A stretch of DNA of 64,000 bases from Sipunculus nudus (Eukaryota; Annelida; Sipuncula; Golfingiida; Sipunculidae): positions 15,064,001 to 15,128,000 of the forward strand of contig CM049308.1 in assembly GCA_026874595.1 (NCBI GenBank), read 5' to 3'. The position numbers and the translations under genes are program-made. The notes under the pieces were generated by a model. The model was not told the origin of the DNA, made no database searches, and saw only the letters and a program-made list of their open reading frames with translations. This document shows positions 8,170 to 60,409 of this stretch, piece by piece. Numbering within the stretch: the first letter of the stretch is position 1; every line of letters begins with the position of its first letter.

Positions 8170-8785
8170 CCAATGTGTTATTATTTTTAATTTATTTATG
8201 TATATTAACGTGCCAAACTCACTGTATTAAAATACAATAGCTCTAAGGCACTGTACACAGTAAAATGCATGAAGATGATTAAAAAAGAATATCAGAGACA
8301 GTTAATACAATTATAATTAAAATGCCTAAAAAAGTAGATGTGCAGAAAACTAAATATTCGAGAATCCAAACAAAGTCGATGACAACGGCTTATAATATGC
8401 CAACTAGAAAAGGTGTTTTTAGCAGTCTTTTAAAACACGGAACACTTGAGGCATCCTTGATATGTTGAGGAAGATTATTCCAGAGGATATCGGAGGAGTA
8501 TCTAAATGATCTCTTTCCGAATGTGTCCTGGCACTCGGCACCTCAAGGAGAGATTTATTGGCTAACCTTAGTGCACGCACCGGACGATACTCCTTAACCA
8601 TGTCAGCGAGGTATGAAGGTGCTAAGCCAAGGAGGGCTTTGAAGGTAAGCAGCAGCATTTTAAAGCAAGGTCTGTACTCCACCGGCAGCCAATGTAGCTC
8701 AATAGGTACTGGTTTGATGTGTGCTCGCCGCTGGGTGAGTGTGATAAGCCGAGCACAATTTTGTAGGTCAGTAAGTCTGTTTCAT
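8170..8785 (-). pseudogene. 3' end of a decayed non-LTR retrotransposon (RT C-terminus plus 3' tail)
   Basis: Conceptual translation of 8785-8390 gives the C-terminal signature of CR1/L2/Nimb-type reverse transcriptases. It runs LQNCARLITLTQRRAHI, then ELHWLPVEYRPCFK, then LLLTFKALLGLAPSYLADM, then RSFRYSSDILWNNLPQHIK, with a TAA at 8390-8392. The frame changes by one base between VPSARTH and FGKRSFR, near 8518-8530, so the copy is frameshifted, and it is truncated on its 5' side near 8785. Beyond the stop, the minus strand carries a line-tail motif (TGTACAGTGCCTTAGAG ... ATAAATAAATT ... AATAATAA), typical of the 3' end of such elements. The domain match is clear; the exact clade is not. Confidence 0.85.
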
Positions 8786-20447: not shown

Positions 20448-20957
20448 GCCGAATGCCATGACCACATTTCAACTTTTCATAATGCGCGTCAATTAATTGC
20501 GTCCATATAAATATGAAAAACTAGATATGCCGAATATTGACTGCGGTGAAACACAAAGCCTTTAAAGATTTCCATTGGAATACTCTGAATTCCCTTCAGG
20601 AGCTGTATAATTATATGGACTCTCAAGGGAATATCTTTTATTGTGGAGTAAATATTTGATTATAGAGTATCTGAAGTCTTGGCTTAAATGAGCCTTTTAA
20701 TTATATAGACAAATTAAATCTTTACATAAGTTGAAGTCCCTCAATCACAAAACAAAGAATGTCTCTTTCTTTAATGATGACGTTGATATATTATACTCAC
20801 AGTACTTCTCATCAGTCAGTTGATTATTTGAATGATTACAATGGATTGTGGGGAGGGTTTTTTTTTTCAAGAGATTCGCAATGCGGTTCAAGGAAACTGC
20901 AGAAAAACACCAAATCTCTTCCTGCAAGTTTTCACCTTTTGATCGACAGTTTTGTGC

Positions 20958-21238
20958 GGACTTCCGGCTTCACTCACCGGACTTCCAGCTTCACTCTCCG
21001 GACTTCCGCCTCCACTCTCTGGACTTCCGCCTTCACTAGCTCTCATGACTTCCGCCTTCATTCTCCAGACTTCGCTTTCACTCTCTCCGGACTTCCGGCT
21101 TCACGCTACGGACTTCCGCCTTCACTCTCCGGACTTCCGCCTTCACTGTCCGGACTACCGCCTTCACTGTCCGGACTTCCGCGAATTATTCTCTGCACTT
21201 CGCCTTCACTCTCCGAACTTCCGCCTCCACTTCCCTTG
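20958..21238 (+). repeat. 21-bp minisatellite, about 13 copies
   Basis: The unit is ggacttccgccttcactctc (20 of 21 bases shown) with point variants; one region near 21040 and one near 21180 break the period. Because 21 is divisible by three and the unit lacks stops, three plus-strand frames stay open (e.g. GLPPSLS repeats), which creates ORFs at 20759-21280, 20848-21039 and 20952-21269. I see no start context or flanking coding sequence, so I call it noncoding. Confidence 0.85.
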
Positions 21239-21424
21239 GATGTTTACATTGAAACTGCACACACTCTAGTCACATTTTAATGATAAAGAGTTGCATGTAA
21301 AATACATTATAAAGTGTAATACTTTGATACACCGAGCACCTTTTGATATAGGCGTTTGAGGAAATACGCAAGCTTGTAATCATACATTGACTGTCAGCAT
21401 AAAATTAGGCCTAAATATAGGGCC

Positions 21425-22130
21425 AGTAATGGAGGACTCGGAGTCCAGAGTAGAGTGCACTTTTTTTGGGACTTGGACTAGAGAGTCGAGTTCACTTTTT
21501 TAGGGACTTGGACTAGAGAGTCGAGTGCACTTTTTTTGGACTTGGACTAGAGAGTCGAGTGCACTTTTTTGGGACTTGGACTAGAGATCCGAGTGCACGT
21601 TTTGGGGACTTGGACTAGAGAGTCGAGTGCACTTTTTAGCGACTTGGACTAGAGAGTCGAGTGCACTTTTTAGCGACTTGGACTAGAGAGTCCTGTACTC
21701 GTACTCGGGGTTCAGGGCTCGAGAAATCATGGCGAGTCCATCTCAAGTCAAGTGGATGTCCCTAATACATATTATAAATTCATTTTAGATACATGCATGT
21801 GTAATATATTGTGTGTATATACATATATATGTGTATATAAATATATATTTTATATCATATATACACAAACATAATATACCAAGTTTTAGCTCAACATCAG
21901 AAGCTTAATAATATTAAACATTCAAAGTAAAGTGCATTTGTAAAATAACATAAAAATAGTTAATGTAATTATCAATTTTTAATTTTAATTGTCTTTTTGA
22001 GAGATTTTATTGGACTCAGACTTGGACTCGAACTCGAAGAACTGGTCTCGGACTCAGACCACTATAACTCTGACTGACTCGAGTGTCCTGGACTCGGACT
22101 TGCACTCGGACTCTGATGGTGTGGACTCGA
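21425..22130. mobile_element. GACTCG-rich nonautonomous element, copy 1, with expanded left end
   Basis: Both ends are rich in GGACTCGGACTTG-type repeats (21430-21740 and 22012-22130), flanking an AT-rich core with acatattataaa... and ...gtattggactcggactt-like borders. The same arrangement recurs at 32955-33335. In this copy the left end has expanded into a 34-bp tandem array. It is noncoding; ORF 22010-22279 reads through the right end. Confidence 0.6.
21440..21722 (+). repeat. 34-bp minisatellite, about 7.5 copies
   Basis: The unit is acttggactagagagtcgag followed by tgcacttttttggg. Successive acttggacta starts lie at 21471, 21506, 21540, 21574, 21608, 21642 and 21676, i.e. one 35-bp step and then 34 bp. 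Variation is mostly in the T-run length and the ggg/agc junction. Confidence 0.9.
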
Positions 22131-45457: not shown

Positions 45458-45648
45458 TTAGTGGAAGCCGCTCTTGATGAGCTGTTTGAAGATGTAGGTG
45501 ACCTCCTTCCAGGCTTTGGGTGGCATGCCGATCCTCAGAAAGAAGTCTTCCTTATCGTGGGCCACACTGCCCAGCGCAATCTTCAGATTACGTGCGATCT
45601 GTGGAGGCAGGTTCACGCGGCGACGAAATTCGTTCACGTTGCGGCTCA
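45458..45648 (-). CDS. Prohormone-4-like neuropeptide precursor, terminal exon with stop codon
   Basis: The last coding exon: acceptor tatatttgtag, phase-1 entry, 62 whole codons and a TAA stop at 45458-45460. It begins (V)SRNVNEFRRRVNLPPQ and ends KQLIKSGFH. The C-terminus matches the conserved prohormone-4 tail, which in honeybee ends KLVKTGFLD after a run with the same spacing (IGMPPKAWKEVTYIF here, IGIKDSELGDVKFF there). A tribasic RRR at exon residues 8-10 is a candidate prohormone-convertase site inside an otherwise helical, presumably disulfide-free tail. The exon is GC-rich relative to its surroundings. ORFs on the opposite strand (45380-45738) are shadows of it. With the other two exons it gives about 146 residues of the precursor within this window; the missing N-terminus should add the signal peptide and first peptide. 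Confidence 0.9.
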
Positions 45649-46314
45649 CTACAAATATATACGAAACAATTAATGAAAATTTTAAATTTAAGCGGATTTA
45701 AACATTTTTGTAGCAAAAAAATACCTAACAATTGCTAAAGATACTTAATTTGGGCAGATTAATATATTTTGTAGCAAAAATATACCAAACAACTGCTGAA
45801 GATTTTTAATTTAGGAAGAGTTATATAGATTTGTAGCCAAATGTATCAAACAATTGATGAAGATTTTAAATTTAGTCAGGTTAATATATTAATGGAAGCA
45901 TTCTTGAACCATTCCTATATATTTTCATTTACATCATTGCAAATAAAACAAACTACTACACCATGTAAATATGAAACATTGAGCAGCCGCTACTTTCAAT
46001 ATCTCTTAATCGCTATCCCGTACCACTAAAAACTTTGGATATTTTAACAAATTTTGTTCATTTTAGTAGTGTTAATAATCTTTTCTGCAGAGGGTGACCA
46101 TTAGATTATTTAATTTTAAATTAACAAATGATTTCCAAAATTGAGAAGTAAGCAATTAATCCATGAGGCATATACTACATACTTAAAATAAAACCAGAAT
46201 CATTTTTAACTACTTAGAAAATTCAATTAAATCTAGATTTTATAAAAAAAGTCTAACATTTTCATAAAATTAATTACAAGCATCCTAGTTGTACACACAC
46301 ATATATATATAAAT

Positions 46315-46346
<32 letters not shown>

Positions 46347-46352
46347 GTATGT

Positions 46353-46404
<52 letters not shown>

Positions 46405-49400
46405 TAATGCACTGCATAACAATAATTGGATCTATGTATACATTTCAATTTTCACTCAACCTAGTCCACGACAAAAGAAGTCACAGAAAACTAGATTATT
46501 GCTATAATTTTGATGCAAGAATTAACGTTGCCATTAAAGAACGTAAGAAATCCAAGGAAATGATTATATAGTGTGCGGTCCAAGTTGTGGCAATCCTCAA
46601 TCAATTATAAATAAATTATGGCTACGCGACGTGACGAGATCTTTGCATTATACCTCGACAAATTAAAAATAATTGACTTTCCTGACCATCCTAAGTCCCG
46701 CCTATTACTACCTATCGATGTCGTTTGCTGTGACCGGATTGGCTTACAACAAAATATGATTAAGATAAATGACAGCGCGCAATTATCAACCTACATGAAT
46801 TCCCGGCATGTCACATTTCACGTCAAGCTGTGTGCGTCTGTATGGCATTGTCTCAGTAAAATGCTATCACATGCACGATGTACGCTCTCCAATGGGCTAT
46901 TTCTTTATTTTAATCAAACTTCAAGGTCTTTTTTTTCTGTTAACATTACTGGAATGTAAACATTTATGCTTCCCAGGAATACATAAAGTTTGGGGCCATT
47001 ACATAATTCCTTAATTTGTCTAAATGGCGATTTCGGTCTTTCAAAATGAGTAAGCGACAATATTGTTAAAAAAATCTAAAAATGTATCTTTTATATCAAA
47101 TACAAATAAATTATATCTACATTTACGGAAGGATAATTCGGTAATATGAAGAAAAAAAAACATTATTTGGCTAGATTAAAAATGCTGTATTATATATTCA
47201 TCTATTTATATTATTATCTTCAGATATAATGTAAAGATGTAAATATATGTAACTGCAAAAGAACCAACATCGAAATTCGTGTAAACACAGGATATTTATA
47301 GAATAATATATGAGTGAGACTGCCGTAAGGTTTAAGCACGGGGATCGTATAAACGTTGTCGGCAGACGCGGCATCCATCAACTACCGATGTCGCCGGGAG
47401 ACTGACCACGGGAGGACTATAGCTATCAAGGCCCGAACAACTGCTGGAGATGCATATATGTATGTCCCAGCACCGTGACCTGATCACCATGGTAACAGCA
47501 TCTTAACCTCCGATTGGTGGATCCAGATGGGTCTGGTCTAGACGCATATAGCCTCATCCGTTGTAAATTGATGTATGCCCGTCTCTTTATTTATTTGATC
47601 TTACGCTGATTTTGTGGGTGTTGTTCGTCTGTGTAGCCCTTAAACACGCATACTTCTGTCAAGTTTTGTTGATAACGTGGACCTGTTGATTTAATATAGA
47701 AATATCGGCCAGGGTATGAGACTGGCTGGCTTAAGCCGAAGCTAGCTACATTTGTATATGTGAAGCATGTACAGACGAAGATTTATAAAAATATAACGTC
47801 TGACAGAGTCGTAGTTTGTCTGTGGCACTAAGTATTTTCTAAATTTGATAATCCCCAGGGATATTAAGTTGATCATCATGTTACGGCTATGGATTTATGA
47901 TTGTTCAGAGATGGTCAGTTTGATAGTTCAGTGGCTTCAGTCTGATTCATACAAGCTAATGTGATTAGCGGTTATGGTTGAGCCCTTGGTGGGCCAGCGG
48001 CTTTTTACGAATGATCCAGTGTTTGAGTTTTCCATTACCAATTAGCTTCTACTTTGGGACCGTCGAACCTCCAATTAAACGTTACCCACGAGAGAGGCAT
48101 GCGAGTATGTTGCATGGACCACCAGCGCCCCTCGCGGTGCGAGCTAATTCTTCAAGGCGGCCGACGCCAGTGCGATCTCTCCCCACGTGGGCTCCGTTAA
48201 TGGACCGAACCCTGCGCCACATTTGGTGCGAGGCGGCTTTCTTGCTTGTACTGAATTTACCAATTTACTGCTTACTAATACTTCCTGCACTGACTTAAGA
48301 TCTCCCGGGACATCCCATTTCTGAGAGTTTTTACGTCCAGGTTCTTACTAGGGAACTTGAGGCGACTTATTCGTCCACATTTTAATTAAATTCAGCAAGA
48401 TATAAAAACACCTCCCGGGAGTTGGAAATGAGGATTGCTTCTCCAAACATCTGCAAAAGGTTAGCGGTATTACAAGGTTCTTTCCTGCAGGGTGACTATC
48501 CCGACATATAAACCAAACACCAAATGTTGAGGCGACCTAAACGACACCAAGAACGTATTGAGACAACTGGTGTCGCTCGATTAAAGGTTAAAAAAAAATG
48601 TTGGACAGGTTTTCTTTTGTAAAGACATTGCTTAGTTTTAAAGGAAAATACTGAGTTTTTTTCTAAAATCTGCATATATTATAGTGATTTTAATGAAATT
48701 TGTAGGTGACCAACCAAACTTGAAATTTACTTAACATCCTTAACAGCCTATGAAATAAATCCTTTATTTAATTGGTAACTAACTATTTTTACAATATAAC
48801 ATTAAAATATTATAAATTATGTGTTGCTTCATTCAGATTCCTTTTAGAATTATTTTTCGTCCATAAAATTAAGGTTTATTGAACAGTATTAACTAAAAAT
48901 ATGCGTTAAATGCAACATACGATGTAGAGATGAAAAATTATAACATGATGGGATAATTCTTATTCTTATAGGACCTTAATTATGCACATATGACCAGTAT
49001 AAGGTATAAAGAAATGAAGTAAAAAATCCGAATACTTTATAAAATTCTATATCTAGCAGTGTTTTTATACAATTATGTGCGTGGTTCGTGCAAAGAGACA
49101 AGATATCACATTATGGGAGCTATTTTATGCCGTCTATGAACGTTGGCTGTATGATATGTAATAATTAGACATTTTGGTTTTTTAAGTTTCACGTTACAGA
49201 GACTGGATAAACATCTTAATGCCACATGACTTAAGAAACTGGAGGTGCCGCGGTCACCATTAGCTACAGTGAAAGTGTGAAGTTTGCGGAAAAAATAAAA
49301 CGCAAGAGTACGTATTACATCACACGTGCACTTATACCATTTAGCGATGAGCAAATATCGAGTTCACAAATGATGGACCATTTGTCAATTTTAGAAGTTT

Positions 49401-51607
49401 TTTTCCCTATATTTTCGCAGGCCATATAACAGATGAAACTCGCTAACAATTTCTGACAGGCCCGCCATGCTCAGGCTCCCGACATGATGGAACACACTCT
49501 CTTTGCGTGCTGAGTTTGTCGCCCTTCCATCAGCTTTTGAACGATATGGCTCCATTCCTGTGTTGAACCAATTTCTTACTTATTCGCCACACACCCCCTT
49601 AAATCCATCTTCTTGTTATGCGTCGTTAACTCCGGCCAATGTTATATTAACAGTTGATTTACTGTAAATGTAACGTTCGTTGATAAGTCTTTTTGCTTTC
49701 AAATACACAGTACCTCGTGATCCGTAAGCTTACCTCCAGGAAATTGATATTTCTAATACACGGATTGTAAGCGAGTTGGTTATTTTAATATTTTTTCCTT
49801 AGTTTTTTTGCAAATTTTAATTCATAATTTACAGTATAAAATAATCTGGCTACTCCGTAACTGCTCGGCGTAATCGTTTATATGACTTTCCAACACAATA
49901 CACATCTGATTACCTTTTAATTGTCATATTTGTCTCATAAGTTAAAACAATAAAGGGTTTCCTTTTCAAGTAGTAGCTTTCAAGAGAATCATTATCATAT
50001 GTTATAAAATTAATGATCAACTTGCAAGAACTGTTGAATTTTAAGCATTGTTTACTACTTTAATCGTTGTTGTTATCTCTATAGTAAAATATTTAAATGT
50101 GTCAGTGATTAAATGTTTTATTTAATGTACTTTATTTTATCTTTTATCTTAATGAGTTAAAATGCTAAATCCACAAGCAAACACGATGTACCAACATGAA
50201 CCACTATGTATCCGTGCCTCAGCTCCACAAAAACCTGTTAATGGTCCACGTATTGATTTCATCCACATATATGGTTATTCTATCTGTCTGTGCTGAGGTT
50301 TATTTAGATTAAGCTATTAATGATTAATATATGCCAGAAGGCTGTCCTGGCATTTAATGTTATTGTTAAAATAAGTGCAGACATTATCGGCATTTGACGC
50401 GCGGGGCCGGTGGTTGCTAACCAGGTACTGCGAGAATTAATTAGTAAATGGAACGTCCAGTTTGTAGAGGGGATACCCCTTTTGAATAATTCGTGAAGGT
50501 GAAGTCCTCTTCATGACCTATTGGGCAGTGGCTTTTGATCCCATTAGATTTCACAACAAAGTGGCCGGGAGGTGTCCATTATAACGTGTGCCCATTTGGT
50601 CAGTCATTAATGGCGAAACCCGCCCTGTGACAGAGGTCCCTGACCCTTAGAAACATAATGGATATGATCCCGCTTAATTCATTGTCCCTCGATGCTGTCT
50701 TAGTGCTGCAGGCTTAGTGATCCTAATAAGAGTGAACCCAATGACCTCAAATGTCTGGTACAACACAGGTGTTGAGTATATGTTTGGGATTCTGTGATTA
50801 ATTAGAAAAAAATAGATGGCAGGTACTGTATATAAATATGAACAGGTTACTGAAAAGAGCTCCCACCCTCGACTTTTTCTTCTCACCCTATCACCTCTCG
50901 TGAGATTGATAAGGTCATACAAATAAGAAGTGTCTAAAAGAATTTCCTATAAATAAATCCATTTAGTTTCTCAAAATATCACACCTGCGCCTTTGCAACC
51001 CTCCTTTTTATTTTTTTTATTTATTTTTTAAACCTCCTTTGCACCTCCTTCCACCAGATCCCTTTTCCACGATATTAATATAAATGTTTTGATATTTGCA
51101 TACTCATTGGGCCACACCTTTCGTAGCTTTCAAAAGGTTCTGGTCTGGTAAGTTTCGTTTTAAAAAGTTTTGGACTGAATTGCGCAGAATATCTTTTGTT
51201 TCATAAACTACGTTTGTTGCTAAATCAATTTCAGGTTTAACCTGTGGTGCTGCGTTTGTGGCTGCAACCAAGAAACCTCATCGGAAATGTATCACAGTTA
51301 TCAGGATGGTCCAGCCAACGTATTGGCACACAATTTTCAGTATTTTTATCGAGTTTATCACAAAACTAATCTCCAGTAAACATTTAATTTTGCAATGTAT
51401 GCCCGCCCCCACTATAGTTAGGATAAATTCTTAAATAAAAAAATGCCGAAACTCCTACACTGACAAATACTACATGTCATCAACCTCGCTCCAAAACCTC
51501 CCATTGCATTGGTGCCGAGTTCAACAGCTCTCACTCGTACTAGGTTTGATTGTTCCATCCTTAGTTTATCTCCAATATACCGGAATAAAAATAATACTTT
51601 TATTCAC
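45649..51607 (-). other. Last intron of the prohormone-4-like gene (5,959 bp)
   Basis: A phase-1 intron with GT (51607-51606) and AG (45650-45649). It holds the AT/TA microsatellite at 46300-46402, a mixed-composition block at 47330-47570 (tetranucleotide-diverse, GC above background, no long ORF), a lone mixed block at 50380-50690, and otherwise AT-rich sequence. I see no second gene on either strand; ORFs such as 46618-46959 and 47978-48298 have no recognisable domains. Confidence 0.8.
46297..46403. repeat. (TA)n microsatellite in the last intron
   Basis: A short interrupted run and then a pure run from about 46357 to 46402, preceded by a CA-rich segment. Confidence 0.95.
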
Positions 51608-51721
51608 CTGCGAGGGCGTGTGCGATCTTGGAGACGGGTTTGCCAGCGAAAAGGGGCTTCATGATCCAGCCTCGTTCTCGGTGCAGGAAGTTCATCATGT
51701 CGACCACTGGTGGTCGGCTGG
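51608..51721 (-). CDS. Prohormone-4-like neuropeptide precursor, middle exon
   Basis: A 114-nt exon, too short to stand out as an ORF. The acceptor is ttttttccag and the donor CAG|gtgaat, and both junctions are phase 1, so it joins the LDLa exon upstream and the terminal exon downstream in frame. It encodes 37 whole codons starting SRPPVVDMMNFLHRERGW and ending PVSKIAHALA. In honeybee the same place reads KRPPV..., followed by a helical FLQSLL-type segment and an LFG/LKPLGG stretch; the order of hydrophobic and proline positions corresponds. The dibasic KR after the LDLa module in honeybee is SR here, so convertase cleavage at this point may not be conserved. It has no recognisable domain of its own. 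The exon is supported by frame, splice sites and colinearity together; any one alone would be weak. Confidence 0.85.
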
Positions 51722-54700
51722 CTGGAAAAAAGATATAAAATCACATGAAATTCATACAAATTAATATATGAATTGAAAAAATAACTTTTTTTTATCGTCG
51801 GAATAACAAAACGAAAATATACAAATGATTAATACATCTGTCCAGGTAGTAAAACGTGACGCTAAACCAATGAGATGTATATTATTTTTTATTTTATTTT
51901 CATTTTTTTTATTTGCTTTTCAATTTTTGCTCTGGCTTCAGACCACTTATAGCTTTTACATGTGACAGATATCGTCCGACGAATTCGAGTAAGTGGATGT
52001 TTTATTTCTACAAGAGGCAAGTAATATCTTGCGTCTTTCTTTCTGTTGTATGTGTAATTGTCTGTTTGTTTTCCAAGGAGTTTGTATATTTACAGTTACG
52101 AAAAATTTCATTTACGGTGTACGTTTAGCTTTTATAATCGATGATGTTAATCTTTTTTTCATCTTCAGTAATGAAGGGAAGGTATTTTATATAATCTAAT
52201 ATATTTTCACCGTCTTTTTTCTCCCAGAGTTTCAGGAAAAGTTTTTTTAATCATTGACATAAGCTTCTTTTTTCTATCAGTAATCCGTGAATCGGCGCTG
52301 AAAGACTCTTACTGTAGTCTGTAGGGAGTCAACTTTTTTTCTGACTGCGCCAGTGCTGTCGTTCTAAGAGCACTGAAAGAACAGCGTGGGTCTACTCGCT
52401 CTGCTGGACTTGTCCTGGCGTTGCTTTCACAGCGTAGTGCCTGCTAAGCCCGGACGCATTATTCTTTGATGGACTGAACCAGCCGGACAGGTGGCATGGA
52501 GGCACATCAAAGAAACCAATTGGAAAATAGTTCGGGTTTTATCCGTGTGCTTGTGAAAGTGGGGCGTAATGGCCGGCCGGTGATCGTGGCTGGGCTCGCC
52601 ACAGCCCCGGCTGGCAGCAGAGGCACATCATCGGGCATTTAGTTAAGTTCTTCATTTCCGAACAATCACATACATCAATACACGCAAACAATGATCCTTA
52701 CTGGAGCCACACTACTCTTCACTCATGCATAATGGAGAACTGCATATGGCAATTAAGTGTTCGCGAGAGACCCGGCCTGTCTCGTCCCCGGGAAAAATGA
52801 AAACCATCCCATAATGCTCTGTTTAAACTACAGTACAACAAAGCAGGCATAGTCCCTGTCCGTGGTCCGTGTTTAACGCTTGACCAGGTCTGGTTATATC
52901 TGCCTCATTTCAAGTATTGTTGTCACCTTTTTATAGTTATTACCACCTTTGGTGACGTCTATATTATCATTATTATTCATCAAATCATATCAATTCCAAG
53001 CGAATAAATTTCTTCCTTTTACTTTGTTATATGATTTTCAGGAGAGTGCATGGTGTTAATGTTTGGGGAAAATGTCAACAGAGTGTACCATGGCTAATTT
53101 CGCAACCTGTTTGGGTTCTCCTAATAATAACCTGTAAAATTTGCACTATTTGTTTTGGCTGCAGAAGGAACAAGTTGAATGGGTGCGAATTAATCACGCC
53201 TGAGCAGGCGCCCTACGCCGGAAGTGACCAGGCGTATTGTTCGATATGGTTTCAAAGGGGATTTTGCCCACCAAAAGGTTGACATTAATTATTACAAATG
53301 ACCAGTTATGGTTACTCACCCGTATCATACAAAGGAAACCAGCTAGCCAGGGAATAACCAGTACGTTCCACTAATTTTTAAAATGTATGGTCGCATCGTG
53401 AGGAAAATAGGCCGTGGAAGGATAAGTATTAACTGGCACGTCAGCTTATCCTCACAGCAGTGGAAAATTTACCAGAATAATTATAAGTTTATTCTTCAAA
53501 GGGTAGTATAGTGTAACCTTTCTGGTTAAATGAATTTTCACTAAGTTTTATATTTTATTTTATCTTTATGTACACATTGAATCGGTTTCGTCAGTTTTAT
53601 GAGGAATTATCGCCAAACGATTATTTGTTGAAACTTAATGCTGCTTTATTTCGAAAACTCTGCGTGGTTCGAGTAGTAATATTATGTTTTATCCCATCAG
53701 CGGACTGTATCAGCTGCTGTTGAGATGATGTAACCATGACGATTACATAATCGTGTTTTATGGTAAATGTCCTGGTAAAACTGATTTTCAGCCCATATGA
53801 TGTATATCTCAGCGGAAAACTGCCCCAAAGAGTCAAATAAAGACATAAAGAACAACTGTTTTCCTACTTTTGTTACGCTGAGCTCTATCGTGCGCGGGGC
53901 AAATATGACGAGATACGGTGCTCAAATGGAATCTGATAAAAAATATATAATGGCCCAACGTCGCCTAATTCAGTTAGGTATTACACTGGATGGTTCCGAC
54001 ACAGGCATTATCAAAACCTGTTTTATCTAAAAGCAATGGCTTTACCTTGGAATAATTTATGTATGTTCAATGCTTGTTCCGCGTTCTACCTTTTTCGGCT
54101 AGAAGGCTGTTTAGATCTCCCTGCTAGTTTGACCCAACATCTAACATGGGGCTATTCTTAAATATTTTACTCGCAAAAAATTTACCTGGGTATCGTTACC
54201 ATGCCTACTTTGGGCTATATCAAAATATCATAGAAGCCATGATTCGAATGCAATGTATCGTTAATTTGCTTTCATTATACACGTACTTAGGGCTATTCTG
54301 GAATATCCTTAAAGCTATAACTGAAGCTGTGATAGATACCCTTGATTGATACCCTAGTATTAATTTCTATAAATAATCGTTAATTTGTATTTATTCATGA
54401 AGCACTGATGCAAATAACACCATGGAATCACCGTGATTGTAACACAACAAAGGAAATATGCTGAACGTAGGTGGATCATTTCTAACTGATGGCTACCTTT
54501 TATTCAAGAACGAGGCTCTGGATATGATAACAAAGATTGTGAATTGAACACAAACCTCAAAGTTATTGTATGACGCGAGGGAAGAATTGTTCCAGTGTTC
54601 AAATGGTGATGGAAGAACAAAAAACTTCCCATACACCGTTTTGTTATCATTCCAATTCCGCGTAATGCGAAAGTGATGTCCTCATATATGAGGGGCATTT

Positions 54701-55425
54701 GGAATTGAGCAAAGGACTCTCGCGGGGCTTAATCCACAACACACAAGCTCAAGTTCCTGGTCTTGTACACTCTCCGCTCCGGGACTCAACACAAGTGACT
54801 CGCTTTATCTTCCCCCGAAAGCCCATTCCCAATTGAAAGCAGAAAGCAATTTGATAAATCATCTTTCCTGCTCTGCCATATCTCAGCAGTTAAATAAATC
54901 TAGACGTCTGGAAATTCTATAGGTATGAAAACCAATGAATCAATGAAGTCGTGATAGGCAATGTTGAAAAAACACTCTTTATACGCCCGCTGGGTCTTCT
55001 CTACTTTTTAAGCGTTCTTATGGCGAAGTGACTTTAGGTTAACTAATAAAGACTTTTTTTGCCTTAGGATCGAGGGTTTACTTCTTGTTTATTATTTGCA
55101 TTGAGTATGTAAGGTACCATATTTCATAAATTATGTTTATAACTATTTTTATGTGAAAGTAGGAAAGTATATTTCAATAATCAGTTTGTATTGTCCAACA
55201 CAACATAGGGGTTATCCTTCCAGTGTGATTTTTTTTTGTCAATTGTGGTATGCGTAAAGGTGTTATGTTATGGAACATGTATGTGTTATGTGTGTAGTAC
55301 TTGGTGCTTCGAATGTAAAACAATGCAGTTAATGAGAAAACATGGTGATGTAAATGGGGCATTGGTTGGTACAGTTAATCATAGAAACATTGCTTTTAGA
55401 TGAAATGTGATTATTATGGAAACTG

Positions 55426-55525
55426 AGGCAGTGTGGTTTTGGGTAATGTGGTAGTGAGGTTGTGGGAAATGTGGTGGTGAGGTTGTGGGTAATGAGGAGG
55501 TGCGGTTGTGGGTAATGAAGTGGTG
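55426..55525 (+). repeat. GT-rich minisatellite (about 22-bp unit)
   Basis: Repeats of gaggttgtgggtaatg with ggtggt/agtggt variants, about four to five copies. It lies in the long intron of the prohormone-4-like gene; the corresponding minus-strand ORF 55329-55544 is an artefact. Confidence 0.75.
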
Positions 55526-55869
55526 CGGCTGATGTGGAGCTCACTGATGCTATATTGACCTCTGCGCTTCATTTGAAACACTATGGTGCAGTGTGGAAGA
55601 TGGCGCTAAATGTATATTGTTGCTGTCAACAGCGATTGTAAAGTGTTATTCTTATTCCATGTATTAATGTGGAAACGGTACTAAATGTGGGAGACGGGTG
55701 TTTCCCTGTAGAGCATTGTGTAAGTTTGAGGATTGTTTACAAGCTACCAATTCTAGAGTTTAGACAAACTGTGACAGAGTTAACAGATAAAATCGTCCAA
55801 TCAATGAGTAATGGTAATGTATGTCCGACATTTGATGAATGTCATGATGTCTAGAATTGATACACGAAT

Positions 55870-56475
55870 TACAAATCAAATTCTTTGAAGAAATTTTGCC
55901 GACGTCCCTCGGTCCGAGGTCAAATTGTCCCACAGGTGCGTGGTTACATGGTCCGCTTCCGCAGTAAAGTAGCCGTTCAAATGCAGTTCCGCTTCAAACT
56001 TGCTTTGAAGTTCCGCGGCTAAACTGCCCTGACGTTCGAAGGTCAACTTGGGTTGAATCCCAACGGTAAGTTGTCCAGAAGCAATTCAGTTAAATTGTAC
56101 TGGAGTTCCGCGGTTAAAATAGTCTTGATTTAAAACGGAGAAAATGTCCAGAAATCAAACAGATAAATTGTCCTAAGGCTTCATGGTGAAATTGTTTTGA
56201 AGTCATACGGTAATTATTTATGAATTTTTCTTTTAAACTGTCCTGACAATCCACAGTGAAATCGTCCGAAATTCCGTTAGTGAAAATTCTTAACTTTTTA
56301 CCTGACGTCACTGGGTATTATTGTTCTGACGTTCCATGACTCGTATTGAATTCACACTTTACAGTTGTCACTCGGTAAATTGCCCTGAAGTGCAACGGTA
56401 GAATTGTCCGGAATTCCAACGGTAACTTGTCCAGATGTTGTTTGATAAATTGTCTTGAAGTGCCGCCGAAAAAAT
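55870..56475 (+). repeat. Degenerate short-period repeat (aaattgtcc / gaagttcc / cggt)
   Basis: About 600 bp in which variants of aaattgtcctgaagttcc and acggt recur roughly every 28-40 bp (e.g. near 55922, 56010, 56092, 56147, 56232, 56380, 56405, 56447). It is strongly diverged, so an old satellite. It has no coding potential. Confidence 0.65.
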
Positions 56476-59057
56476 GGCAACATGAATATAGCGATAACGA
56501 TAAGACAATATCAGAGTATTTGATACAGTTAATTATTTATGGAATCCATATAATTTACAAACACAAGTGGCATTTTTGCTACCAGTAACACATAGAACTA
56601 GAATGTAAGTTATAAACATTTTCTTGGTAAGAAGGCACAATTTATTATTATTTCTCAATGATAGCTGAGACTCTTATTTTGCGATGCACACGGGTAATAG
56701 CATCGGAATATCGAATAACATTCGTATGATAAGCTTATAACTCTGCATGATTTGTTTTGTTGTTGCTGCTCTTGTCGTATTGTTTATATACATGTGCGAG
56801 CTTATTCCATGGTTACGGCTGCTGATGCCTTTCTTTTATTAATGTGAATTTCATGAATGTTCCTGGGTTTGGAACGCCTAATATAGATATAACAAGATAG
56901 ATGATCAAAAACAAGTTCCATTCCGGTTTCGGACAACGTGACATGGGCTCATACTCGATTATCCTGGTATCAGCAAGGTTCGTTGTACAGCCCCTGCGGG
57001 TCGTGGGTGTGTGCCTTCCCCATTGCTGGGTCATAACCCTGACGAACCCCCAAAAGGTGCCCCATTAAGCCTGCAGCCTGCGCTCACCATTGGTGGGGGT
57101 CCGATCGTGAAAAATCTCACCGCCTCGTCTGGACTCGAAGTCCTAAGCTCCTCCCATTCCCATTAATATTTGTTTCCTTTTATGGCGTATTTTTGGGATT
57201 AAAGAAAAAGAAATTTATTAACATCCAATTGACGAAAGCATCACGTATGGCGCAATTCAACCATTATCAATGCTGAGAGCAGGAGCTGCAATCAACATAA
57301 TCTCACCGTATTTTGCCGCCTCTAAATAAAAAGCGTGAAAAAAAATGCAAAACGTGCTTCCTGGGAGGGGGATTTAGTTTTTACGACCTAAGGTTTATTG
57401 GAGCATTATGTTCAAAGACTTTTGTGTGAATATATCATACAGAGCAAGGTTGGCGCAAATTCCGCACTCCCCAAAAAACAATAACTTTCCGGGACTTGAA
57501 ATAAATGATGCATGCTGGGTCAGGCTTTATACCAGCCTTTTTGTCCGATAAATACAGTTATGTCAGTAGCCAGTTAATCACTGGCGGATTCCCTTAAGAA
57601 AAACTCTGCATGAACGCCCATGTTGCCATGGTTACAGCTAAATTAGGGCTTTCCCTGTGGCCCAGTGTACGAAACTGTGATAACTGCAAATAAAGTCGGT
57701 GAGAGGTGCCTGGTCTTGTGACTTTACACGACAGATTTACGACGTAATACATGACTGATTCATCCGAGATGGGCGTTTCATGGAGAGCCGGGCCGGCACG
57801 GGATAATGAACGCAGGCGCAGCGAGACCACAGCGGATGTCTCGTAGGGCCGGCAGACCTGACCAATTTACCTTTAGCACCAAGAGTCTTATCTACAGTCG
57901 GGCCCTATCTCTTTTCAGCGGTTCAGCGCTCCCGGCTTGTATCAGTTTTATAAAGGCTGCATAAATACCGCTGTGTCACATTATACGGTGATAACAATAC
58001 CATGGCCGCATACATGTGTATTGGAATCGATGTGGTTCTGATTTTAATCATACAACAAAGCGTCTTCCAGCCACCGCGACACGCTAGGTCTACCTTTATC
58101 ATACACGAGCTCTGGGTGCTTAAATGGATCCTTTGTGCGCGCGTTATTGTTTGCAGCTTTTTGCCTGTCGCGCGTGATATATTGTCACTGAACTAGCTTA
58201 AGTTGTCACCAGGGTCTGACATATAATGATTTTACTAACAGCACTAATATCAATATTTAATCTACCGATGGCCAGACACAATGCTTTTATGAAAGGAGTT
58301 CAGATTGGTCCCATCCAAATGGGATAATTCCAAACAACTGCCGATATCAAAGAAAAACACAAGCCATTGCATTAAGGTGACACCTGTGAAAATAAATTCT
58401 AACTGATATGACTGCGGCCTTTACACCAAAAATATTACATATCCATCAAAGTTATTGGTTCTTTGAATGGACATTAGACACTGCGTATGGCACCTGTCAA
58501 TTAAACTGACGGCATCTATTAACAGAAGGAAAAAAACTTATAAAAATATGGAATTTAAAAGTTTGCTTAGCGCATGTTTTCAGGCTTGTTTACGTCAATG
58601 AATAATTTTGCATCTTAAATATTTATGTTAATTACAGGTAAGCAGGTGTTTAACTGTCGGAATGTTGCAAAACTGAATGTATATGTGTATAAATTTATAA
58701 AGATTTTTATACGCAGGGAGTAATAAAACATGTAACTTACAGCAGTTTAACCATGTGAATAAATGGTACTTTCGGCGTTCGACTTGAAAACTTTAATACA
58801 TTTCACGGTTAGGTTGTAATAAATGTCTGATATCAACTGTATCTCATATAATGTTTCTTTCTCTGTTGATTACATATAATACCATGCACCTATAACAAAT
58901 ACGATTTACATAACTCGTTGATTATTTATAGGCATTCTCCAAAGAAATCCATTACTCCCCTAAAACTTATTAATTTAGTATCTAATTATAATTTAATGTG
59001 CTGTCTGATCCTTTACATTTTTTAAGGTAAAATAATATTTATTTTTTTTACTCATAT

Positions 59058-59841
59058 TGTGACAGGTGCTCTTTTTATTGTGTGACACGGGCGTAACTCG
59101 TGTTGTTGTTACATTTTATGTTTAATCAGTACTGGTTGAACTCTCGTTGTCATGTGAGCCTTGGGTTTTCACGCCTGGTCGTGGGTCACGTGATGAGCCT
59201 GGTATGTGTAGAGACACACGGCTACGTCTTTCTAGATAATTCCTGAAACGCGTGTTGTGCATTATCTTATAGACTGTTCGAGAAGTGGAAAATTCCCGGC
59301 TTGGGGTGTGAAGGTATATAAAGGGGCTGTTTTCTAGAACCAGAGGGCAGACAGCAGAGCAGATACCAGCGGACGCAGGAGCGTATGTCAGATTCTAAAA
59401 CCTTATCCGACGAATGCGGCAATTATACATTTTCAAAGATTTTCTCTTGGATTTTATACATTTGGACTTCAGTTTACTTTCTGTGTTGTTGCAAGAACTT
59501 TCGACTGGACTGTCATTCTCCGAGAGATTACATTCAAAGGAATTATCGTGGTGATGGTGTTGGTATCGAGGTGCTGTTCCATTATCTTTCTGTGTGATTG
59601 TATTGACTTGTTGCTATAACGCTGTTTTACTGTATAATTGTATTGATTTGGTGTATTGTATTGTTAGGGTTGTTTTCGGAATAAATTATAGTTATTTGTA
59701 AACAAAAAAAAAGCTGACTTCTTTATTCATTTCCCTAGACATTTCACGGTGCCTAGTGTTACAAAATCTATTTTTTTATCTCCATTACAAAATTTGTGTT
59801 CATCACGCATACGTGATCTGTTTATATTAGGTTCCGTAACA
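59058..59841 (+). mobile_element. Solo LTR (784 bp) inside the prohormone-4-like gene intron
   Basis: The termini are TGTGACAGGTGC and CCGTAACA, flanked by ATAT at 59054-59057 and 59842-59845 (a probable 4-bp target duplication). It contains TATATAAA at 59315-59322 and AATAAA at 59680-59685. It is the longer relative of the 27.7-kb copy; the extra segment is about 59365-59630. An ORF at 59385-59597 lies within that extra segment and has no known domain. It is antisense to the host gene, so its promoter would drive transcription opposite to the gene. No internal region is attached. Confidence 0.85.
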
Positions 59842-60274
59842 ATATTCATTTAATTGAGCCAAAACAAATTACTATACGATGATATATGTGCATAATACGT
59901 CACTTGTTTTGCCTACACACTGCAACGTAAAAAATGGTTTGCGCAGTCAGCTTATATTTATTCCAGGCATAGTATGAAGAGAAACGATAAAGTCATTACA
60001 TTATTTATTCTACAGACAGGAGATAACCTTTTCTTGAAAAGTAATAGCAAGAATTAACCTTTCCTCAAATGTGCCCATAGTTCATTTGACGAATGATCAA
60101 CAAAAAAGGCTTTGTTTAATATTAAAGATTTGTTAATACATGCATGTTAAAAAAATGAATTTCTCAGTCAAGCAACAATACGCACATGGTTTGCGTGTTT
60201 TTTTTTTTTAACGAAATACATGCACTTTGAATTATGTCAAATAACCTCATAACCTGATGACGTAATAGACTTAC

Positions 60275-60409
60275 CGGCTGTGCAGACTGCGGTGTCTTCG
60301 TCATAGCCATCGGCGCAGTCTGTGTTGTGGTCGCACACGTACTTCATGGGTATGCACCGACCGGCGGTCTTACACGGGAACGGGGCGTCTGGTGCCGGGC
60401 ATGGGTTAC
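60275..60409 (-). CDS. Prohormone-4-like neuropeptide precursor, LDL-receptor class A exon (partial gene)
   Basis: This exon encodes one complete LDL-receptor class A module, 44 whole codons plus split codons at both ends. Six cysteines lie at exon residues 3, 12, 18, 25, 31 and 42, with the calcium-site pattern CDHNTDC...DGYDED (acidic residues D26, D30, D36, E37). The usual SDE is YDE, as I recall it in honeybee prohormone-4. The acceptor reads ttttccttgcag and the donor G|gtaagt; both junctions are phase 1. The following exon continues as CTA-A-SRPPV, closely matching the CTAAKRPPV of the honeybee ITG-like peptide precursor. The family is a secreted neuropeptide precursor in insects and lophotrochozoans, with an N-terminal IDLSRF-type peptide before this module. 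That part and the signal peptide are not in view, so the start is unknown. Family assignment rests on domain order and both flanks; an unrelated LDLa protein is unlikely. Confidence 0.9.

Follow-up and report, generated by a model that had tools for sequence, protein, structure and literature searches.

A prohormone-4 family gene of Sipunculus nudus and its likeness to an NMDA receptor auxiliary protein

Does the prohormone-4-like locus of Sipunculus nudus make a peptide hormone, or does it make a secreted protein with a role at glutamate receptors? Prohormone-4 has reportedly been classed as a neuropeptide precursor ever since the honeybee brain peptidome. We analysed a window of 64,000 nucleotides (contig CM049308.1, positions 15,064,001 to 15,128,000); positions below are those of the window, and those with the prefix C3 are those of the contig.

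Three exons were identified on the minus strand. Exon 1 (60409-60275, 135 nt, with AG before and GT after) contains the whole six-cysteine LDLa domain and is in phase 1 on entry and exit. Exon 2 (51721-51608, 114 nt, with the same borders and phase 1 at both ends) encodes (A)SRPPV and the initial portion of a cysteine-free C-terminal domain, and the terminal coding exon 3 (45648-45458, 191 nt including the TAA, preceded by AG) encodes a mostly helical tail with the end KSGFH. Intron 1 (51722..60274, 8,553 bases) and intron 2 (45649..51607, 5,959 bases) are both of the GT...AG type on the same strand, in agreement with the three exons 8.55 and 5.96 kb apart described in the first-pass annotation. 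Its phase-1 junctions were likewise found at the incoming border and at both inner borders of the joined exons. The joined frame was recovered on translation, where just one of the three frames stays open up to the final TAA and yields 145 aa. For the terminal exon, AF2 without an alignment predicted four helices (mean pLDDT 70), and an AATAAA at 45273-45268 on the minus strand, spotted by eye, is a candidate polyadenylation signal. A 61-bp tandem repeat at 45652-45890 lies within intron 2 and stops 3 bases short of exon 3.

The GC content of the exons is 0.62, 0.60 and 0.54, compared with 0.31-0.35 in the flanks, and exon GC3 is 0.73. In exon 1, Pfam LDLa (PF00057) was detected with E=6.9e-8 and 33 bits (cut-off 24.1). 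Additionally, the 145-aa protein aligned with the prohormone-4 of the cone snail Cylinder ammiralis, as printed in the review PMC10892987, with 43 of 137 residues identical, no gap and E=6e-27, across both inner junctions. Because of the base composition, the Pfam match and this ungapped alignment, the exons stand above chance level. By its sequence, the locus is a split three-exon gene for a predicted secreted protein with predicted splicing. Elsewhere in the window, no Pfam match was obtained in the five other ORFs scanned, from 11 listed; no tRNA was found, and no Rfam family reached its gathering score.

The same alignment places the gene in the prohormone-4 family. The cone-snail C-terminal domain alone scored 31.1 bits against that of the window, a value reached by none of 5000 shuffles. 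The published architecture consists of a signal peptide, short peptides, a six-cysteine LDLa domain and a cysteine-free tail (PMC8398477). The LDLa domain and the family proposed in the first-pass annotation hold for this gene, as does the cysteine-free tail; the motif and the end given for it were too narrow. The linker, described as CTAA-(S/K)RPPV, has to be loosened, with CTAATRPPV in the PDB entry 8v14 and CAAVLRPL in the cone-snail protein, where RPLE stands in place of the RPPV of the window protein. The end described as K(S/T)GF is seen in the KSGF of the window protein, and the cone-snail sequence has KLGL. In the name "prohormone-4-like neuropeptide gene", the family stands and "neuropeptide" is not settled: two loose matches in the window gave no convincing IDLSRF-like motif, nor was such a peptide recognised in 79.6 kb of upstream sequence, the minus strand of the 80-kb stretch C3:15124001-15204000 giving ten loose matches. 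A DLSRF at C3:15150695 lies in a 34-codon open stretch whose printed part has no dibasic site, and it was taken as chance.

Upstream of the window, a candidate first coding exon was identified on the minus strand at C3:15146866-15146733. It contains a signal-like stretch, a short peptide, a KR site and a phase-1 donor, and it is likely, as predicted from these features, to be the first coding exon of the gene. When phase-1 exons were ranked with a weight on GC3, this exon took third place, behind two rows of low complexity by eye, and it was the sole passer among 189 donors of a filter whose criteria were drawn up after it had already been seen. The candidate short peptide ahead of KR is RVMDDLVNYFKNKEMESA, and no clear IDLSRF-type peptide was found in the exon.

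These features bear on the classical reading, in which the short peptide before KR would be the signal, acting on an unnamed receptor, and the LDLa domain and tail would serve folding or sorting or be by-products. The KR site behind a short peptide fits this reading, and several family members point to a peptide product: honeybee IDLSRFYGHFNT is the founding peptide of the family and the oyster peptides MSVDFSRL and PYLLS were detected by mass spectrometry (both PMC8398477), and PH4-Vc1, IGFPGFSTPPR, was reported from injected cone-snail venom (PMC5100318). The mature peptide varies in the family, IGFPGFSTPPR being one example (PMC5100318). However, RVMDDLVNYFKNKEMESA is by eye unlike the oyster, honeybee and cone-snail peptides, one Conus prohormone-4 class apparently has no mature peptide, and the conservation sits in the LDLa-RPPV block. 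We regard the classical reading as rather unlikely, with perhaps one chance in five in its favour.

The block itself was compared with the PDB. Outside LDL-receptor-family proteins, the top match of the window protein was 8v14_A (E=2e-13, 53.7 bits), from an entry titled "NMDA receptor auxiliary protein", which we take to be C. elegans NRAP-1. Over the LDLa-RPPV block, 22 of 41 residues are identical, and the alignment passes the exon 1/exon 2 junction ungapped. When the query was shortened by the first part of the LDLa domain, 8v14 was the first PDB row (E=5.9e-11), with the match running through CTAATRPPV, and a query from Cys5 onward again returned it first (E=0.00094). In the converse search of the 1.43-Gb genome with 8v14 residues 33-167, the LDLa exon was the first of five exon-level matches (E=0.003, next 0.03); the other four are LDLa repeats without an RPPV block in frame. 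The two proteins are each other's best match, outside the LDL-receptor family on the PDB side and at exon level on the genome side. The window protein searched against its own genome recovered the exons of its own gene, all three of them, with the LDLa exon at C3:15124270-15124407. A further LDLa exon (C3:49424670, E=2.8e-4) came up as a candidate paralogue and was set aside; its gene has a second LDLa-like exon. On these comparisons, the LDLa-RPPV block is the most conserved part of the predicted protein and is common to the NMDA receptor auxiliary protein.

The secreted LDLa protein could instead have a different partner (a lipoprotein, a metal ion or a non-NMDA receptor), in which case its likeness to 8v14 would reflect shared LDLa ancestry only. 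LDLa domains are promiscuous, with 85 distinct PDB sequences matching the window protein at E<=1, and the C-terminal domains are unlike in direct comparison. Nevertheless, with the query shortened by the first part of the LDLa domain, 8v14 scored 45.0 bits, where the highest-scoring single LDLa repeats reached 14-15, and CTAA(S/T)RPPV, which lies past the domain, is common to both proteins. We therefore consider another partner highly improbable.

For the C-terminal domains, direct comparison of the window protein with 8v14 gave scores reached by 1645 of 20000 shuffles (local) and 378 of 20000 (global). With an 8v14-only profile on the window domain, 175 of 5000 shuffles reached the score; when 8v14 was scored with a mollusc-only profile, the figure was 77 of 5000, and 8v14 was not among the PDB matches of that profile at E<=10. 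An approximate, unverified version of an arthropod prohormone-4 C-terminus was used as a bridge. This sequence matched 8v14 over residues 57 to 167 (E=1.3e-23), and a profile of the two gave the window tail 12.0 bits, a score reached by none of 5000 shuffles. Downstream of exon 2, 198 tails of 45-90 aa follow a phase-1 acceptor; of these, exon 3 scored best against the approximate arthropod tail (30, with 3 for the runner-up) and came 26th against the 8v14 tail. The two C-terminal domains thus appear to be joined only via the approximate arthropod sequence and not directly.

Because no IDLSRF-like peptide was recognised and the LDLa-RPPV block is the most conserved part, the gene may act through its LDLa protein rather than through the short peptide. 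NRAP-1 is said to be secreted from neurons, to bind NMDA receptors and to enable their gating. The gene product is somewhat more probably than otherwise a secreted neuronal prohormone-4 protein, homologous to NRAP-1, that acts as an NMDA receptor auxiliary protein. The precursor would comprise, in order, a signal sequence, a short N-terminal peptide, a KR site, the LDLa domain, the CTAA(S/T)RPPV linker and a cysteine-free helical domain. Cleavage at KR would release an LDLa-helical protein of about 150 aa, which, by analogy with NRAP-1, would bind postsynaptic GluN1/GluN2 and ease their opening. Of this account, we infer the upstream exon, the cleavage and secretion of the product, its expression in neurons, and its binding to and gating of the receptors; GluN1-like and GluN2-like exons were found in the genome.

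Cleavage at KR could also free two products with separate targets: an LDLa protein of the NRAP-1 type and, beside it, the short peptide. Such a dual output would be in line with the oyster peptides seen by mass spectrometry (PMC8398477) alongside the conserved LDLa-RPPV block. In 8v14, a GKR site also precedes the LDLa domain at the same spacing as the KR of the candidate first exon, with KR, six residues and then PCP in both precursors, but this match is weak (E=1.1). The spacing counts in favour of the link to NRAP-1 as well. We hold two products to be doubtful, less probable than the classical precursor.

Extended to the whole protostome prohormone-4/IDLSRF family, the auxiliary-protein reading would make it the NRAP-1 family, a secreted presynaptic NMDA receptor gating factor in which the LDLa-RPPV-helical part works and the short peptide is either a product in its own right or a propeptide that is cut off; we give this an even chance. 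The effects of prohormone-4 that have reportedly been described on honeybee foraging, and its occurrence in cone-snail venom, would then come down to action on glutamate receptors. The target of prohormone-4 is called undetermined in reviews (PMC5100318). The likeness to NRAP-1 offers this "hormone" without a known target a testable role at glutamate synapses, and, if prohormone-4 represents NRAP-1 in molluscs and arthropods, the target question could be put to the GluN1/GluN2 of this animal. If true, this would also hint that a released protein controlling NMDA receptor opening is old in protostomes and no nematode oddity. In open-licence papers, no statement of the link was found; since the search covered those, it may already be in print in the subscription literature, for example in the NRAP-1 paper.

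Among known systems, the window protein shares with the prohormone-4 of honeybee, oyster and cone snails a six-cysteine LDLa domain followed by a cysteine-free C-terminal region, whereas no counterpart of their IDLSRF/DFSRL peptide is recognisable upstream of its LDLa domain. With 8v14 it shares the LDLa domain, the linker, a cysteine-free tail of similar length and the end (S/T)GF, and also, by its candidate first exon, a KR site at equal spacing; in the alignment, a single run of 9 residues is missing from its exon 2, and it has 5 extra residues towards the end. The repeats of the LDL-receptor family (LRP2, VLDLR, LDLR) have the LDLa domain in common with the window protein, but the latter contains a single one, and those repeats are without the RPPV linker and score far lower per repeat.

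The gene model on the minus strand comprises the LDLa exon (60409-60275), a second exon carrying the RPPV block (51721-51608) and a terminal exon (45648-45458) that ends at the final TAA. All three exons are preceded by AG, the first two are followed by GT, and the introns measure 8,553 and 5,959 bases. The incoming and both inner junctions are in phase 1. Through the joined exons, a single frame reaches the final TAA open, giving a product of 145 aa counted from the first whole codon. The exons, introns, splice sites and phases proposed in the first-pass annotation were thus all confirmed. Exon GC content was 0.62, 0.60 and 0.54, against 0.31-0.35 in the AT-rich flanks, with a GC3 of 0.73. 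In a Pfam scan of the joined protein, LDLa was the sole family above cut-off, with a single domain (E=6.9e-8). A 61-bp tandem repeat (45652-45890; 3.9 copies, 75% matches) stops 3 bases short of the exon 3 acceptor boundary, so that the acceptor region resembles the margin of a repeat copy. Elsewhere in the window, a 21-bp array (20957-21231, 12.9 copies) yields a long repetitive ORF (20735-21280) and has as its neighbour a 34-bp array (21447-21692, 7.2 copies). A 120-aa minus-strand ORF (8419-8781), without a Pfam match at E<=0.1, presumably resembles the terminal part of a LINE-type reverse transcriptase.

Prohormone-4, first obtained from honeybee brain and described in arthropods and molluscs, comprises a signal peptide, short peptides, a six-cysteine LDLa domain and a long Cys-free C-terminal peptide, according to passages of PMC8398477; an excerpt of PMC6425005 places it among the families that originated in the stem protostome. 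In a single pairwise comparison, residues 8-144 of the joined protein aligned with the prohormone-4 of the cone snail Cylinder ammiralis, as printed in PMC10892987, at 43/137 identities with 0 gaps (E=6e-27). This bears out the family assignment made earlier for the joined frame. No evidence supports the exon assembly more strongly than this alignment, which stays in register through both inner junctions. On its own, the C-terminal part scored 31.1 bits against a cone-snail profile, a value reached by 0/5000 shuffles. The gene model and its family membership are close to certain. The earlier observation and its family call both hold; the label neuropeptide precursor is one reading among others.

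The window occupies C3:15064001-15128000 of the searched genome (1.43 Gb, 153 contigs). A first coding exon was sought among exons ending in phase 1 over 79.6 kb lying 5' of the LDLa exon. The candidate, C3:15146866-15146733 on the minus strand, has a hydrophobic start, a KR and the donor GTAAGA; it encodes MRGMELQALLFAALMAVSSARVMDDLVNYFKNKEMESAKRTQND and then shares a split Gly codon with the LDLa exon. It was the sole passer among 189 GTRRG donors under a filter devised post hoc (Met, hydrophobic stretch, dibasic site). With this exon, the protein would reach 190 aa and the first intron 22.3 kb. No IDLSRF-like peptide was evident in the window or the 79.6 kb upstream.

In a search of the whole PDB, the joined protein matched many LDLa repeats, as anticipated, but the 168-aa 8v14_A, "NMDA receptor auxiliary protein", also appeared (E=2e-13), ranked under four LRP2 rows and one VLDLR row. 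From its entry name, we take 8v14 to be C. elegans NRAP-1. The alignment extends past the LDLa domain. With the query starting at the third cysteine, 8v14 ranked first (E=5.9e-11), CIPMKYVCDHNTDCADGYDEDTAVCTAASRPPVVDMMNFLH of the window matching CVPIKYLCDGSPDCSDEYDENKSMCTAATRPPVEETQAFLK of 8v14 at 22/41 positions; single LDLR and VLDLR repeats scored about 8-15 bits. It again ranked first from the fifth cysteine onward (E=0.00094). The order KR, six residues, PCP is common to the candidate upstream exon protein and 8v14, a weak match (E=1.1) and only suggestive. In the reverse search, residues 33-167 of 8v14 against the whole genome, the window LDLa exon ranked first (E=0.003), and the four weaker matches were LDLa repeats without an in-frame RPPV block; this search works at exon level, so a diverged second gene could escape it. 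At L004 (C3:49424670-49424777), an LDLa exon precedes a second, LDLa-like one; the locus probably belongs to a multi-LDLa gene related to the window gene by that domain alone. Homology with 8v14 outside the LDLa is likely.

For the C-terminal domain, the evidence from sequence comparison is mixed. In direct comparison of the window C-terminus with the 8v14 C-terminus, neither the local score (reached by 1645/20000 shuffles), the global score (378/20000) nor the profile score (175/5000) was significant. A window plus cone-snail profile scored 8v14 at 2.6 bits (reached by 77/5000 shuffles), and 8v14 was absent at E<=10 when this profile was searched against the PDB. An arthropod prohormone-4 C-terminus served as a bridge; the sequence used is provisional and may hold errors or NRAP-1 admixture. 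It matched 8v14 over residues 57 to 167 (E=1.3e-23) and the window protein at 4e-11. A profile of this bridge and 8v14 gave 12.0 bits for the window tail and 17.6 bits for the cone-snail tail, with 0/5000 shuffles as high in each case. In the alignment, VSKIAHALAVSRNVNEF of the window stands opposite VDKVAVALSQTPTADLF of 8v14 across the second junction, and (S/T)GF ends both proteins. Through the provisional bridge sequence, the predicted C-terminal link to 8v14 is strong; such an end-to-end match with 8v14 would be improbable for an invented sequence.

The genome contained 44 Lig_chan matches, 36 of them above cut-off, and a SYTANLAAF-type motif occurred in 16/30 loci extracted. Two motif-bearing loci were compared with the PDB: L028 is GluN1-like (best match GluN1, 9e-24; 56/56 rows NMDA type 1) and L021 is GluN2-like (best match NMDA 2D, 6e-20, among the best 60 of 127 rows), so a putative receptor is present. 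Ionotropic glutamate receptor exons are numerous and several are clustered, on C10 (L014, L017-L019, L022, L024, L025), C4 (L023, L030, L033, L037, L041) and C8 (L027, L031, L038). Seven of the eight weak Lig_chan matches score almost identically and lie within 77-80 Mb of C2; they may represent a repeat.

C. elegans lacking NRAP-1 reportedly loses NMDA currents, which recombinant protein is said to bring back. KR cleavage would free an LDLa-RPPV-helical protein from the precursor, and by analogy with NRAP-1 the freed protein would act on NMDA receptors. Given the GluN1- and GluN2-like receptors, we take it as the probable NMDA-receptor-acting product, and we lean towards this whole account. 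The peptide evidence speaks against this account: MSVDFSRL and PYLLS were detected by mass spectrometry in oyster (passages of PMC8398477), PH4-Vc1 has been reported from injected cone-snail venom with its target unknown (PMC5100318, in part), and Profundiconus precursors carry several copies of the peptide (excerpt of PMC6891753). A short peptide may thus matter as a product alongside this protein. No tie of prohormone-4 to NMDA receptors was found in the partial texts searched, mostly non-subscription papers and so weak evidence; in the available prohormone-4 passages (PMC5100318 and PMC10892987 among them), NMDA concerns conantokins or is absent.

Cone-snail venom components include prohormone-4 proteins whose target is unknown, according to portions of PMC10892987 and PMC5100318. 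If the NRAP-1 link is true, these venom proteins would be related to a protein that assists NMDA receptors. The present gene is a further member of the known prohormone-4 family, and it is notable for the proposed tie of that family to NMDA-receptor auxiliary proteins.
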